DNA of 32,444 bases from the NCBI GenBank assembly GCA_015654525.1, contig JAATGT010000148.1, forward strand, positions 1 to 32,444. Direction: 5' to 3'. This document shows positions 2,319-11,656 of the stretch, in pieces. The first letter of the stretch is position 1. Each line of letters starts with the position of its first letter. The DNA comes from Bacteroidales bacterium. GTDB lineage: Bacteria; Bacteroidota; Bacteroidia; Bacteroidales; Paludibacteraceae. The notes below the pieces were generated by a model. That model was not told where the DNA came from. It did not search any database and worked only from the letters and a program-made list of their open reading frames with translations. Made by a program: the position numbers and the translations under genes.

Positions 2319-3212
2319 TTAGCACTTCACATTTAATTCATTAAGAACTATACGAATTTTTTCGTACGTTTTAATGGTATTAGGTACCAATGGTAAACGT
2401 AATATATTTTCGACAAAGCCCATCACAGCCAACATACTTTTCACTCCGGCCGGATTGCCTTCCACAAAAAGTAATTGAATCAGTTCGGTAAAATGATAAT
2501 GGATCTGACGCGCATTGGCATAGTCACCTTGCTGCGCCAGGCGTACCATGCGGCTAAATTCGCGCGGGAAAGCATTTCCTATGACCGAAATAACTCCTAC
2601 AGCCCCCAAGGTAATCAATGGAAACGTAATCCCATCGTCACCCGAAATAACCATAAAGTCTTTCGGTTTATTTTTAATGATATCATCTATTTGAGTAAAG
2701 TTGCCCGATGCTTCTTTGACAGCACAAATATTGGAGAATTCTTTGGCAAGACGCAAAGTAGTATCAGCTACCATATTCACGCCCGTACGTCCAGGAACGT
2801 TATAAAGCACTACCGGTAGCGGCGAAGCTTTAGCTATGGCAACATAATGTTGGTAAATACCTTCCTGCGATGGCTTGTTGTAATATGGAGTAACCGAAAG
2901 TATGGCATCAATACCTGTAAAATCGGTTGTATGTAATTTTTCAACTACAGCCTTAGTATTATTTCCACCTAAACCAAGTACGATGGGTAATCGTCCGGCA
3001 TTGCATTGCACTACAAAACGGGTTACATCTTCTTTTTCTTGCTCGGTTAGCGTAGGGGTTTCGGCAGTAGTACCGCAGACTACCAAATAATCCGTACCAT
3101 TTTTGATCAGATGCTCTACCAATCGAGCCAGTGCATCATAGTCAATCGATTCATCACTTTTAAAGGGTGTTATCAACGCTACACCCATTCCTGTCAGTTT
3201 ATTATTAATCAT
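2319..3212 (-). CDS. dapA: 4-hydroxy-tetrahydrodipicolinate synthase
   Basis: Condenses pyruvate with aspartate semialdehyde, the first committed step toward diaminopimelate and lysine. The 297-residue length is typical. The Schiff-base lysine is Lys166 (AVKEASGNF). Tyr137 and Arg142 lie in LYNVPGRTG, and the Thr48-Thr49 pair of CGTTAETPTL completes the proton relay. The (beta/alpha)8 fold of the DHDPS/NAL family is shared with N-acetylneuraminate lyase, but the GTTAE and YNVPGRT signatures favour DapA. It has its own promoter box at 3238-3245, giving a leader of about 20 bases, although ligA and the DUF6913 gene lie upstream on the same strand. Confidence 0.95.
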   Translation of the reverse strand: MINNKLTGMGVALITPFKSDESIDYDALARLVEHLIKNGTDYLVVCGTTAETPTLTEQEKEDVTRFVVQCNAGRLPIVLGLGGNNTKAVVEKLHTTDFTGIDAILSVTPYYNKPSQEGIYQHYVAIAKASPLPVVLYNVPGRTGVNMVADTTLRLAKEFSNICAVKEASGNFTQIDDIIKNKPKDFMVISGDDGITFPLITLGAVGVISVIGNAFPREFSRMVRLAQQGDYANARQIHYHFTELIQLLFVEGNPAGVKSMLAVMGFVENILRLPLVPNTIKTYEKIRIVLNELNVKC

Positions 3213-3936: not shown

Positions 3937-5976
<2,040 letters not shown>

Positions 5977-6074
5977 TATGTTGCTATAAATTAACTCCCG
6001 AACCGATCCCGTGAACAGGACGCGTAGCGGGTATTGTTGGTTAAACGTTAAGTAAGATCTTATTTCTTTATTTG

Positions 6075-6082
6075 CAAAAATA
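6075..6082 (-). promoter_or_regulatory. Bacteroidota -7 box for ligA
   Basis: Minus-strand TATTTTTG, about 100 bases before the chosen ligA ATG at 5976. It places the predicted transcript start inside the 5' extension of the longest open frame and so supports the shorter protein. Confidence 0.5.
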
Positions 6083-6189
6083 AGAATTTGTAGACAAGTA
6101 AACAACTAAATATGCTTCGAAGAAAAAGAAATAATAAAATTCCAACAGAAAAATCAGCATTTAGCTGACCGTTTACAGATAATTATTTT

Positions 6190-7803: not shown

Positions 7804-8589
7804 ATGAAAAAACGAACAATACTCCTTATCTCCGTAATTTCGTGTATCATTACAGCTTTTGCTCAAAAAAAAGCAATTGTTCACGGTAGTAATCCACAAG
7901 CCGGACATTATGCCCCAATTAATGGCATCAGGCTCTATTACGAAATCTATGGAAGTGGCGAACCATTAATCATGTTACACGGTAATGGCGGATCGATTGA
8001 AGCATTTAAATATCAGATTCCTTTTTTCGAGAAACATTACAAGGTTATTGCTATCGACAGTCGCCTTCAGGGAAAATCGGGTGGAGCAGTTGATACATTG
8101 TCATACAACATAATGGCGGCTGATTTTGCCGGTTTGCTGGATTATCTGCATATCGACTCGGCTTATGTATTGGGCTGGAGCGATGGTGGAATAGACGGAT
8201 TAATTCTGGCTATGAACTACCCCGGGAAAGTAAAAAAATTGGCCGTATAGGGAGCTAATATAGTGCCCGACAGTACGGCTATCAGTGCCGCCGATATCGA
8301 AGACATGCGAAAAACAGTACAGAACCCCAACACACCAGCAAAGGATAGAACATTAAACAGAATGATGCTTTATCAACCGCAGATTCCGTATGGTGACTTG
8401 AAGAAAATTCATTGTCCGGTGTTGGTTATGGCCGGCGACCACGACATGATAAAGCCTGAGCATACATTAAAAATATTCCAATCCCTCCCATCGGCTTCTT
8501 TATGTATTTTTCCCGACTCACATCATGGCGTTTGTCAGCAACATCCGGCACTATTCAACGAAACGGTACAAACGTTTTTCAGTAAATAA
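7804..8589 (+). pseudogene. Secreted alpha/beta hydrolase interrupted by one in-frame TAG
   Basis: The frame of 261 codons encodes a signal peptide (about residues 1-20) followed by an alpha/beta-hydrolase fold: oxyanion loop HGNGG (60-63), nucleophile elbow GWSDGG with Ser126, a catalytic acid in AGDHD (Asp212 or Asp214) and the catalytic His in SHHGV (His240 or His241). Codon 149 (8248-8250) is TAG between KVKKLAV and GANIVPDSTA; the downstream part continues in the same frame with no shift. The nucleophile lies before the stop and the acid and base lie after it, so neither fragment could be active. The substrate is unknown; the family includes esterases, lipases and peptidases. A GTG at 8263 could begin a fragment but no ribosome-binding signal is seen. 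Nonsense mutation, sequence error or amber suppression are all possible. Confidence 0.85.
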
Positions 8590-8671
8590 CTAATGTAAAT
8601 CAGGAATAATTTGCTTTGATGGATTTGCATAAAATAATCCGGGTTAATTGACCTGAACATATTGTGCATGC
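8590..8671. other. Non-coding flank of the palindrome array
   Basis: AT-rich sequence between the hydrolase stop and the array. There is no T-tract terminator. The 16 bases at 8649-8664, exactly one 23-base period before unit 1, match unit 1 at 10 of 16 positions and may be a decayed extra unit. Confidence 0.3.
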
Positions 8672-8848
8672 CGACATGTTCATGTCGTCTATCCCGACAT
8701 ACTCATGTCGTCTATCCCGACATACTCATGTCGTACACCCCGACACACTCATGTCGTGTGCTCCGACTAACGTTAGTCATGATGGTCGACTAACGTTAGT
8801 CGTCATGGTCGATCAACGTTAGTCGTGCACCCTTACTAACGTTAGTCG
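8672..8848. repeat. Array of eight 16-bp palindromes with exact 23-bp period
   Basis: Units begin at 8672, 8695, 8718, 8741, 8764, 8787, 8810 and 8833, each 16 bases, with 7-base spacers. Units 1-4 are of the type CGACATACTCATGTCG; units 5-8 are of the type CGACTAACGTTAGTCG, which is perfect in unit 6. Both types share the outer CGAC and GTCG arms. The right half is invariant within each block (TCATGTCG four times, GTTAGTC four times), while changes collect in the left half. Spacers are T/C-rich and variable (TCTATCC twice, TACACCC, TGTGCTC, TGATGGT, TCATGGT, TGCACCC). The array lies between two convergent genes that have no ordinary terminator. It could be a protein-binding array, a hairpin-rich 3' UTR, or an extragenic palindromic repeat cluster. 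Confidence 0.9.
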
Positions 8849-8915
8849 CCTACCCTGTTTAACCTAATAATTGATGTGGGCTTATCACGACAAACAATAT
8901 AGCGGGTATTTATTT

Positions 8916-11609
8916 TCACCGGCCCGACTGTGCGATATAATTCCGCAATTCATTATTAAAATCATCATTTTGCAACAGATCTTCCATATTCAGGTGCAAG
9001 CGATAGCGCCAACTATGCATAGAGTTCGACGGAACATTAATGCGTTCGTCATGAGGATTAGTACGACGAACAGAATCGGAAATACTCAACAAGTCCTGCA
9101 TCTGGAAAATAGACCACATAGCAGGCGAATATAAATGCTGTAAAATAATATCTCGGCAAATCCAGCTCTCACAAAAATAAGGAGCTTCGCCCCAGTGTCC
9201 GAGCTGTGAGTTAAAGAAACGTTGGGTTACACCGCGGTCTTCTTCCCACCAACCGCGAATTGTACTCATATCGTGAGTAGAAGGAGTAACTACCGATAAA
9301 TAAGGTGCATTATTGGGATGGAAAAATTCAATTTTATTCGACTTTGGTGCCCGTTGAACTTCAAGGCTTAAAATGCCAAGCTCATTCATGGCCGAAGTAA
9401 CACAGGGAGTCATCATGCCCAAATCTTCGCCACAAATCATCATGTTGGTAGCGCGTTTCAGAGCCGGTAGTTTTTCCATACCGGATCGGTACCAGTTTGC
9501 ATCCTGGCGGCGATAGAAATAATCAACATACAACTCCCAAAGCCGGTCTTTCGTGTAATTGTCCAAATCGGCAAATGTACGGAGTGTTTCCATACCAAAG
9601 CGCGGATAATACTGAGTTCCATTACTTCCTTCTACCTCAAAGAACAGCACGTTCGAAATCAGATCGAACAAACCCCACTTGATGCGTTCGGAAATTTCGC
9701 CTTCAACAAATAGTTTTTCAATATACGCCTGACTCAGAAATTCTTCTTTCAATCTCAACACCCAACCATCTTCTATTTGCAGACAATTAGCTTTAACCCA
9801 AGGCACATCTTCACCAAAGAAATCCCACAGAATTGCATCGGTAACATAAGGTTTGCAGTAACGGTTATAATCAAACCACAATCCTTTTTCGGCAAACTCG
9901 TTGACATGTATCGGAACAGATGGATTCAAAAAGCCCATGATCCCTTCTACCTGGCTGATTGGAATTTGCCAGATACGGAAAAATCCTAAAATGTGATCAA
10001 TCCGGAATGTGTCGAAATAATTCGACATCTGCGAAAAGCGTTTTTTCCACCAATCGAAACCGGTATGTTCTATTTCTTTCCAGTTATAGGTTGGCAGTTC
10101 CCAGTTTTGCCCTTTTACTGCAAACATATCTGGTGGTGCACCGGCTTGCATATGCATATGGAAGAGTTCCGGCGAAACCCAGGTATCCACACTATTTCGG
10201 TTCACCCCTATCGGAATATCACCTTTTAAAACAATGCCGTGTGTATGTGCATAATGTGCAGCCTCGGATAACTGAAGATGTAAATGGTATTGAATAAAAT
10301 AATTTACAGCAATATCGTCAAAATGCGGTTGATCCGGCGAACTAAAACCGGCTATCTTCTGAGCATCATAAGTTGCAAAGTCCTGCCATAAACGATAATC
10401 GGACGTTCCGGACTGATCGCGCAGAACGCAATAAGCAGCATACGGAACCAACCAGTATTCATTCTCGGCAAAAAAAGCTTTGAATTTTTTATCTGCCAAA
10501 AATTTCGTTTTAGTCAACAGATACAATTCCTTTGCATACTGAAGCTTGTAATTAATCACATTTAAAAACGAGATCAGTTCTTCTGCATTCAGTTCAGCTT
10601 GCTTTGCTTTATACTCAACTTGCAACGGATGTGTGCCCGGAAGTTTTCCGGTAGCCGGTAAATTCAGAAACAAGGGATTGAGCGCAAAGGCCGAAATGGC
10701 AGCATAAGGCAGCACATCAGCATCGGTATGAGTACCTATCGTATCGTTCAGCGGTAGCACCTGAATCAACTTCAGCCCCACTCTTTCAGCCCAATCAACC
10801 AGCAGTTTTAAATCGCCGAAGTCACCAACTCCAAAACTTTTTTTAGTCCGGATACTGAATACCGGCAACCCAACTCCGGCACCTTTCCATGCATTATTCG
10901 AGATACGAACAAAGCCATCTGAAAGTTGTACCAGTGTTTTTGGTGAATTATATATCGGTGCAATGTGATCAAATCCAGATTCTAAATACCGGAATTGATT
11001 ATCTTCCGGATCGAAAACTCCATATTTATAATGCACTTCGTTTTTCACCTTACTTAAGTCCAGTTCGGCTGTCCACCAATCACCGTCGGTCTGGCTCAGA
11101 ACAACCGGTTTCGTAGTGGACCAGTTACCCAAGATGTCACAATCGCCAATCAGGCAAACAGCCTCATTTTGCTTCAGCATAGGCATCTTTACTTTGAATA
11201 GATGCGTATGTTTTTTAGTCGGTTGCGATTTAGCTGTAAAATGATTATGTTGTAATAATACTTCGTGAAAAGGGGCGGTCAGAAATACGTTTTCAACGCT
11301 TCCGGGAGAGTTCCAACTATCAATACAAAAGCAATGATCGGTTTCAGCCGGATTAGCATCAACAGTGCGGTCATTTCCCCACTCTTCCACAAACTGGTTG
11401 GAGTTTTCATCATACAAAACATATTTGTACGTGAATTGAAAATTCTCCGGCTTATTTATTTCAATCTCTGCCAACCAATCTTCGGGATATTGGAAATTAA
11501 GAGCTAATGCTTTGTCCAAATCACCATTGCCTAATTCAGGAATGTTTGCGCTTACTAAAAGACGTTGTCCCCAATGAGTATAATAGGATATTTTAAAGTG
11601 TATTTTCAT
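8916..11609 (-). CDS. malQ: 4-alpha-glucanotransferase with two CBM20 domains (DPE2-like)
   Basis: Transfers alpha-1,4-glucan segments between acceptors in maltose and glycogen metabolism. The 897-residue protein has two N-terminal starch-binding CBM20 domains (about residues 1-115 and 135-235) followed by a GH77 catalytic domain. The catalytic residues are present: nucleophile Asp538 (FRIDHILG), acid/base Glu728 (ICGEDLG) and Asp780 (PSTHDMS). The order of domains and large size match plant DPE2 rather than the 500-700 residue bacterial MalQ, as is usual in Bacteroidota. ATG 11609 (MKIHFKISYYTHWG) is preferred, since CBM20 begins there; ATG 11630 would add seven residues. A -7 box lies upstream at 11657-11664. 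No other glycan genes adjoin it. Confidence 0.93.
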   Translation of the reverse strand: MKIHFKISYYTHWGQRLLVSANIPELGNGDLDKALALNFQYPEDWLAEIEINKPENFQFTYKYVLYDENSNQFVEEWGNDRTVDANPAETDHCFCIDSWNSPGSVENVFLTAPFHEVLLQHNHFTAKSQPTKKHTHLFKVKMPMLKQNEAVCLIGDCDILGNWSTTKPVVLSQTDGDWWTAELDLSKVKNEVHYKYGVFDPEDNQFRYLESGFDHIAPIYNSPKTLVQLSDGFVRISNNAWKGAGVGLPVFSIRTKKSFGVGDFGDLKLLVDWAERVGLKLIQVLPLNDTIGTHTDADVLPYAAISAFALNPLFLNLPATGKLPGTHPLQVEYKAKQAELNAEELISFLNVINYKLQYAKELYLLTKTKFLADKKFKAFFAENEYWLVPYAAYCVLRDQSGTSDYRLWQDFATYDAQKIAGFSSPDQPHFDDIAVNYFIQYHLHLQLSEAAHYAHTHGIVLKGDIPIGVNRNSVDTWVSPELFHMHMQAGAPPDMFAVKGQNWELPTYNWKEIEHTGFDWWKKRFSQMSNYFDTFRIDHILGFFRIWQIPISQVEGIMGFLNPSVPIHVNEFAEKGLWFDYNRYCKPYVTDAILWDFFGEDVPWVKANCLQIEDGWVLRLKEEFLSQAYIEKLFVEGEISERIKWGLFDLISNVLFFEVEGSNGTQYYPRFGMETLRTFADLDNYTKDRLWELYVDYFYRRQDANWYRSGMEKLPALKRATNMMICGEDLGMMTPCVTSAMNELGILSLEVQRAPKSNKIEFFHPNNAPYLSVVTPSTHDMSTIRGWWEEDRGVTQRFFNSQLGHWGEAPYFCESWICRDIILQHLYSPAMWSIFQMQDLLSISDSVRRTNPHDERINVPSNSMHSWRYRLHLNMEDLLQNDDFNNELRNYIAQSGR

Positions 11610-11656
11610 AGACAATTGAATTATAGTCAATTATGTTATATACATTTAACCACAAA

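Follow-up and report, generated by a model that had tools for sequence, protein, structure and literature searches.

The array of short palindromes that lies between two converging genes of a Bacteroidales bacterium (Paludibacteraceae; assembly GCA_015654525.1) raises the question of whether its strict spacing is itself what is maintained, and if so, whether as a row of DNA sites, as a chain of RNA hairpins or as a passive product of repeat turnover. The window, by which we mean the whole stretch of DNA that was analysed (32,444 nt of contig JAATGT010000148.1), holds the array at positions 8672-8848. An initial annotation, made from the letters alone, had described eight 16-bp units with an exact 23-bp period and no indel, and both unit mapping and TRF bore this out: eight 16-mers with 7-bp spacers start at 8672, 8695, 8718, 8741, 8764, 8787, 8810 and 8833, with the array ending at 8848 (we assign no strand to it or to its parts). 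The first four units, block A (8672-8756), are of the type CGACAT-n4-ATGTCG, the fourth with a C.A at pair 6, and the last four, block B (8764-8848), are of the type CGACTAACGTTAGTCG, one perfect and three with changed edges. TRF called the two blocks separately (8671-8757 and 8764-8824), each at period 23 with 0% indels, and types A and B keep one 23-bp register across the change of type. The accompanying description of the units as CGAC-N8-GTCG palindromes holds in part: the exact motif is present in five of the eight (the edges are altered at 8764, 8810 and 8833), and a perfect 16-bp palindrome is found only at 8787, the paired positions per unit being, in order, 7, 6, 6, 5, 7, 8, 6 and 6 of 8.

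No ORF of at least 80 aa crosses the array, nor does any of the kept ORFs (at least 60 aa) overlap it. A scan requiring consecutive palindromic units found a run of six such 16-mers at period 23 in the window; among 300 Markov-1 shuffles of the window, scanned at periods 16-60, the longest run was three (102 shuffles) and 198 had no run, confirming that the array is real and beyond chance in shuffles. The upstream gene, an alpha/beta-hydrolase (7804-8589, plus strand), points towards the array, and the downstream gene, a 4-alpha-glucanotransferase (8916-11630, minus strand), converges on it. Immediately after the last unit comes a tail, CCTACCCTGTTTAACCTAATAA (8849-8870, plus strand), in common with two further own-genome copies (95% over 22 nt for that on C115 and 95% over 19 nt for that on C202). 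These two copies also carry a leader, AATAGTCCGGATTGATAG, which is nearly the same on C349; the left flank of the window copy gave no blast match to the leaders of other copies, and alignment by eye placed a weak counterpart, matching at 14/18 nt, at 8633-8650 (plus strand).

Two window genes, ligA (3937-6105, minus strand) and the alpha/beta-hydrolase (at 8248-8250), each contain one in-frame TAG, as does, judged by eye, a LuxR-type gene at another locus of this genome (L108, upstream of mnmA). Read-through of TAG was considered and dropped: stops between long open runs were not TAG-enriched in this genome (3 TAG, 3 TGA and 20 TAA in 414 kb), the corresponding counts in the relative G340 were 4 TAG, 7 TGA and 36 TAA, recN, at almost the full length of its profile, stops on TAG, and a scan of part of the genome (47 loci and the window) revealed no suppressor tRNA. 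Because TAG is not enriched and recN ends on it, recoding is less likely than nonsense variants or errors.

A blastn search with the window array recovered further arrays from its own genome (361 contigs, 89% complete). Seven consist of A or B units (C250, which is the window, C202, C115, C349, C216, C206 and C38), and three have other palindromes at the same 23-bp period: CGAYAG..AATGTCG on C301, and TGACCAGTACTGGTCA, in three units, on C83 and C33. Because their outer GAC..GTC or GA..TC is alike, these last three may be distant relatives of the A/B arrays. All ten lie between kept ORFs and overlap none. Comparison of 300 nt on each side of the arrays revealed short common flanks in pairs of copies: 32 nt at 97% on the left and 19 nt on the right for C202/C115, 39 and 61 nt for C216/C38, and 81 and 105 nt for C83/C33. 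An exact terminal inverted repeat of at least 8 nt between the 75-nt flanks was absent from seven of seven own copies. The array at 8672-8848 belongs to a dispersed intergenic element of which it is a single copy. L072 (about 2844-3170) and L073 of this genome each hold a longer element, 85% identical over 327 nt and including three units of the TGACCAGTACTGGTCA type; parts of the DNA around it are found again on several further contigs.

Beyond this genome, direct sequence similarity was scarce. Blastn with the array against 40 genomes matched none of the 23 same-genus relatives; the sole match elsewhere was a leader-like 25 nt in G036, where no array could be seen by eye, and plasmids and phages gave no match. 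In a public genome collection, CTAACGTTAG was present twice at 23-bp spacing in five stretches, each from a Bacteroidales MAG (two Tannerellaceae, one Tannerella, one Prevotellaceae and one labelled Bacteroidales only). In L016-L018 the bases around the CTAACGTTAG core differ yet pair, for one to three pairs further out. The Prevotellaceae contig (L017) has four arrays, palindromic by eye, at 1-141, 253-498, 508-591 and 1073-1257, with periods of 22, 23, 23 and 41. We also searched with covariance models of three hairpins, R1 and then R2, the latter built from 12 three-unit sequences (A3); the resulting tallies are lower bounds, because scans of more than 200 genomes scored 13-18 candidates per genome and R2 missed three arrays of G340 that a scan of periods, described below, brought to light. 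R1 found arrays in 3/40 genomes of the genus (E 0.01) and in 1/295 of the order, the own genome (E 0.001). R2 found them in 7/48 of the genus, the own genome included (E up to 0.1), and in 3/393 of the order (own, G347 and G435), and matched 3/395 genomes of the phylum (own, G666 and G460). The match in G460 (L162) was rejected by eye as not being an array.

The initial annotation had held that occurrence in a single strain would count against it, and arrays of this type are present in relatives: the 16+7 layout recurs there, often with unrelated palindromes. CGAATA..TATTCG is the palindrome of G340, G043 and G010; G341 has TGAGT..ACTCA alongside CGAAT..ATTCG; in G014, CCACTA..TAGTGG turns into TTACTA..TAGTAA; G347 has CGATAA..TTATCG; G435 has ACATACGTATGT, in an array about 1 kb from a conjugative-transposon TraM gene; and TGACCAGTACTGGTCA is common to G020 and the own genome. 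An ORF overlaps the array in five of 16 arrays outside the own genome, as in G341 C79, where it is the end of a glycosidase-like gene. Genes neighbouring the arrays include TonB receptors with carboxypeptidase-like domains, GH97 and HU-DUF4469, which along with the named MAGs point to Bacteroidota, and the orientation of genes around arrays is mixed. The arrays of G340 have no flanks common to one another, the C34 pair only overlapping within the stretch compared. Three arrays, possibly by chance, closely follow genes that encode HU-type DNA-binding proteins with a DUF4469 domain (L033, 4237-4971; L084, 2176-2910; L158, 12385-13149). Among viral contigs, L037, L038 and L039 contain CTAACGTTAG 24, 31 and 27 times in 7.7, 14.6 and 12.8 kb with no fixed period, L038 and L039 being near-identical in part, and L203, L204 and L205 have two to four palindromic units of the CGACTTCTGGACGTCG and CGACTTCACGAGGTCG types at period 23, a period that the search pattern required.

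One locus allowed the presence and absence of an array to be compared across relatives. In much of the genus, a gene for a LuxR-type regulator lies next to mnmA. The gene mnmA was found in 43/48 genomes; of these we fetched 30 loci and read the region upstream in 27, recognising LuxR-type gene ends by eye (the domain was confirmed in G341 and G340). An array separates the LuxR-type gene from mnmA at four of the 27 loci (G341, G340, G043 and G010), and the two genes adjoin without one at 20, including G045 and the own genome; another gene precedes mnmA in G006 and G003, and the G046 locus is cut off. The simplest reading of these sequences would be that the array was gained in one clade. G341 and G340 differ in length at this site by 46 bp, exactly two units. 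Comparison by eye of the occupied site with the array-free site of G045 could not place the ends of the element. At two further loci the array and one neighbouring gene are common and the other side differs: a KilA-N gene in G043 C68 and G340 C27, and a HAD-type gene in G340 C17 and G010 C63. Arrays therefore arise at new sites, gain or lose whole units and can be situated near the ends of rearrangements. The KilA-N gene with an array in front (L084, 2994 onwards, and L076) is nearly identical between G043 and G340, as if moved between species.

Most arrays in relatives were found with a model that requires pairing at this spacing, so that their layout is in part circular evidence for it, and we also used approaches in which the spacing was free. 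When patterns of two palindromes were searched with any gap of 0-30 allowed, all matches fell at a gap of 7 or 30 (that is, 7+23) in the own genome (10/10), in G340 (7/7) and in G043 (1/1), and the patterns had no match in G010 and G341. Viral contigs showed a weak preference for these two gaps, with 4/13 matches of a narrower CGAC pattern and 1/2 of the CGAAT pattern. We then scanned stretches excluding known arrays (the own C33 and C38 among those excluded) for runs of three or more similar palindromic units, with any period from 16 to 60 allowed. G340 (771,720 bp) yielded three arrays, all at 23 and with the unrelated palindromes AACGATGTACATCGTT, ACACCACCTATGGTGT and CGGAGGGAAGCCTCCG, which together with CGAAT..ATTCG make four unrelated palindromes in the 16+7 layout of this one genome. 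The own genome (381,965 bp, i.e., 179,881 + 202,084) yielded two arrays, one of period 42 and the other, in which two palindromes take turns, of 21/42, and G016 (400,000 bp) one at 21, two at 41 and none at 23. These arrays of period 21, 41 or 42 in G016 and the own genome lie on L184 (1509-1863 and 9209-9367), L186 (3231-3450), L169 (4789) and L244 (16140-16340); some of those with a period of 41-42 are an alternation of two palindromes about 21 bp apart. All eight arrays found are thus at 21, 23, 41 or 42, and Markov controls (the stretches of G340, own C1-C17 and G016 in triplicate; 4.05 Mb) contained none. The filter for unit similarity was added after the unfiltered result had been seen, which for G340 was three matches at 23 and 14 matches at 12 other periods, scattered like the Markov control. 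A rough binomial estimate, made after the fact, for at least five of eight arrays falling at the periods reported for P. gingivalis (22, 23 and 41) was 6e-5.

In 27 of 31 arrays, spacers have diverged further than stems, and they keep their length. The earlier proposal that position matters and that spacing is constrained agrees with this divergence, with the variable-gap test and with the period scan, and the free drift in period that would have spoken against it did not appear where it was looked for. The same proposal placed neighbouring sites about two helical turns apart, and this part does not stand: one step of 23 bp makes 2.19 turns (10.5 bp each), and neighbouring sites are therefore not on one face of the helix. 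Together, the results suggest that something in these bacteria reads or builds spacing rather than sequence.

What kind of unit is being spaced can be approached from the way in which units vary. The initial annotation had named dimer-binding sites and a chain of RNA hairpins as candidates. In 33 arrays with 165 units (a set that includes two non-palindromic terminal "units" of G340, on C7 and C34a, and excludes L019, with two units in register, the short G010 C225 array, the remaining L017 arrays, those with periods of 21, 41 and 42 and viral L202-L205), units of one array differ least in their outer half-sites and most at the centre and in mid-spacer, and the spacer bases adjoining a unit are about as conserved as the unit edges, a profile that fits dimer half-sites and also hairpin stems. 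As a hairpin chain, a transcribed array would terminate transcription or protect the 3' ends of mRNAs, as proposed for REP. The position of the window copy between converging genes is in keeping with this, as is the folding of both its strands, far better than that of shuffles (z -8.2 and -7.9), with each block forming one long hairpin; however, any tandem palindrome folds well on both strands. There are also coordinated changes: 18/18 pairs changed on both sides in the 12 sequences of A3, which had been picked as palindromic, and CCAC..GTGG gives way to TTAC..GTAA in G014 with a T.G intermediate. We read this covariation, across arrays and in G014, as a change of whole unit type, because within a type the arms vary independently. 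Compared with an expectation of 761.6 (sd 7.6) from re-dealing arms within arrays, own-arm matches numbered 803, more than chance would give, the excess coming mostly from mixed-type arrays, while most single-type arrays were equal or close to expectation. Similarly, among 22 B units of the own genome, eight had a changed left arm, seven a changed right arm and none both, and pair 5-12 in 52 CGAA..TTCG units comprised 27 T-A, 18 T.G, 6 C.A and 1 C-G (Fisher p 0.24). A strand lean in wobbles (G.T to C.A of 4:0 in L017, 0:5 in L018, 6:1 in G340 C7 and 5:1 in G341 C79) would be expected to speak for RNA, but it decides nothing, because it is not uniform (2:3 in the window and 67:50 over all arrays as read) and repeats copied units. 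No terminator-like site was found at the window array, and the mixed orientation of neighbouring genes likewise speaks against a role in transcripts. Pair-by-pair maintenance of RNA hairpins is not supported, and the independent change of arms within a unit type favours dimer-type DNA sites, although not decisively; of the two candidates named at the outset, the DNA sites fit better and the hairpin chain we regard as unlikely.

The account that we prefer, to which we give a probability of about one half, is that of a dispersed intergenic element with regularly spaced, two-fold symmetric DNA sites, similar to the BrickBuilt element of P. gingivalis, in which the spacing is kept while the sequence turns over. 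Such an element would be a non-coding palindrome minisatellite that grows and shrinks by whole 23-bp units, with short conserved flanks on the copies in the own genome; its units may act as DNA sites read half by half by a putative dimeric protein, and the 16+7 layout would be imposed by putative binding or building machinery and not by one common sequence. Binding of this kind might affect neighbouring genes or the structure of the chromosome. Because G340 has unrelated palindromes in the 16+7 layout, one sequence-specific protein cannot read all arrays, and the layout would be set either by several proteins of one geometry or by something independent of sequence. Counting against this account, 23 bp does not make up complete helical turns, the arrays of G340 lack common flanks, some arrays of relatives overlap an ORF, G016 has no array at 23, and no transposase, target duplication or binding protein was identified, both the mover and the binder being putative. 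The turnover of copies differing by whole units and dispersed with common flanks could also be that of a neutral or selfish minisatellite within a MITE-like element, functionless, its period inherited and its units homogenised by slippage and recombination. A comparable MITE is described in P. gingivalis (PMC4596501), and the palindromes of the own genome differ in their core and mostly keep the outer GAC..GTC, as common descent would give. However, spacers that drift in sequence and not in length, and above all the four unrelated palindromes of G340, are not readily explained by an inherited period alone, which would have to bring new palindromes to the same spacing; we consider neutrality the less probable explanation, if a serious one.

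An enzyme that copies or recombines in fixed steps, with a ruler measuring some two or four helical turns, could instead build arrays of any sequence, the arrays being its product or its substrate. The eight scanned arrays, all at 21, 23, 41 or 42 bp, are what such a ruler would produce, and so are the periods in L017 (its palindromes recognised by eye) and those of 22, 23 and 41 nt reported for P. gingivalis in PMC4596501. But the enzyme is putative, some arrays with periods of 41-42 bp merely alternate two palindromes about 21 bp apart, and G016, which uses 21 and 41 and not 23, is at odds with a single ruler; we think this very improbable. A broader proposal, which we put forward tentatively and hold to be clearly less likely than our preferred account of regularly spaced DNA sites, is that a sequence-independent system, widespread in the Bacteroidota, uses a ruler of about two (21-23 bp) or four (41-42 bp) turns to read or build arrays of palindromes; a genome may hold several arrays of unrelated palindromes, and BrickBuilt would be one local example. 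Should a protein or enzyme set the layout, the arrays offer ready bait for finding that factor; should the layout be passive, they show cleanly how bacterial minisatellites retain an exact period during sequence turnover.

On known elements, the initial annotation recognised none with this layout, which calls for correction. The closest known system is the BrickBuilt MITE of P. gingivalis, which, as Klein et al. (2015; PMC4596501) describe it, consists of imperfect 23-nt tandem repeats in 19 dispersed intergenic copies, with a leader and a tail, a unit number that varies among strains and predicted long stem-loops; the element is also named in PMC5771137 and PMC10969869. The interpretation made from the letters alone thus holds for the constrained spacing and, though not decisively, for the fit to dimer-type sites; two-turn helical phasing is not supported, and the absence of a named counterpart has to be corrected. 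The window element and BrickBuilt are alike in being dispersed, intergenic and built of 23-nt tandem units in variable number, and the arrays of the own genome (seven of A/B type, ten in total) are likewise multi-copy and always intergenic, whereas those of relatives touch an ORF in five of 16 cases. With R read as A, the BrickBuilt consensus holds by eye a 12-nt palindrome, TCTCATATGAGA, across the unit border; a strict IUPAC test finds none. Its unit consensus, AGAYCATARTATCCTCTCRTRTG, has no match in the window at up to three mismatches, its IS5-type ends (GAGACC...GGTCTC) are absent at the window array, and GAGACCTTTGCA has two window matches at two mismatches, neither near the array, against a chance mean of 2.36. 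GAGACC/GGTCTC occurs within 400 nt of two of 33 arrays, neither in the own genome. Common flanks extend over hundreds of nucleotides in BrickBuilt and over about 20-105 nt between copy pairs in the own genome. Judged by unit sequence or ends, the window element is not a member of BrickBuilt. Near the C38 array (L015, right part of 1351-1693), we also observed ACGTGAGTTCGATATAAA, which equals the opening 18 nt of the MITE239 end that PMC4596501 lists for P. gingivalis.

A search of the window against Rfam gave no match at gathering score, and the possibility raised at the outset that the array is a repeat already catalogued is not borne out by sequence, there being no match to any family tested. 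REP elements and BIMEs, from what the consulted text of Di Nocera et al. (2013; PMC3733652) states, are similarly short palindromes, mostly extragenic, clustered and dispersed, with several families per genome. REP families are defined there by an unpaired GTAG or CGTC tag, in contrast to the present arrays, in which GTAG is found in 6/132 spacers and CGTC in 1/132; and REP dimers lie 1-5 or 20-100 bp apart, in tandem clusters whose flanking DNA varies in length, unlike the strict 23-bp step described here. The literature reviewed, mostly open-access and by titles and the openings of abstracts, described no such arrays outside Porphyromonas, and the BLASTN searches of PMC4596501 placed BrickBuilt in P. 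gingivalis only, with homologues in P. gulae genomes. Repeats of 22, 23 and 41 nt are reported there for P. gingivalis, and its 464/PgRS MITE has 41-nt repeats, which we liken, by period alone, to the arrays of period 41 in the relatives studied here. Within the bounds of these sources, the repeat type had been described from P. gingivalis and P. gulae alone; it now seems to be one instance of a layout that occurs, with different sequences, in several families of the phylum.
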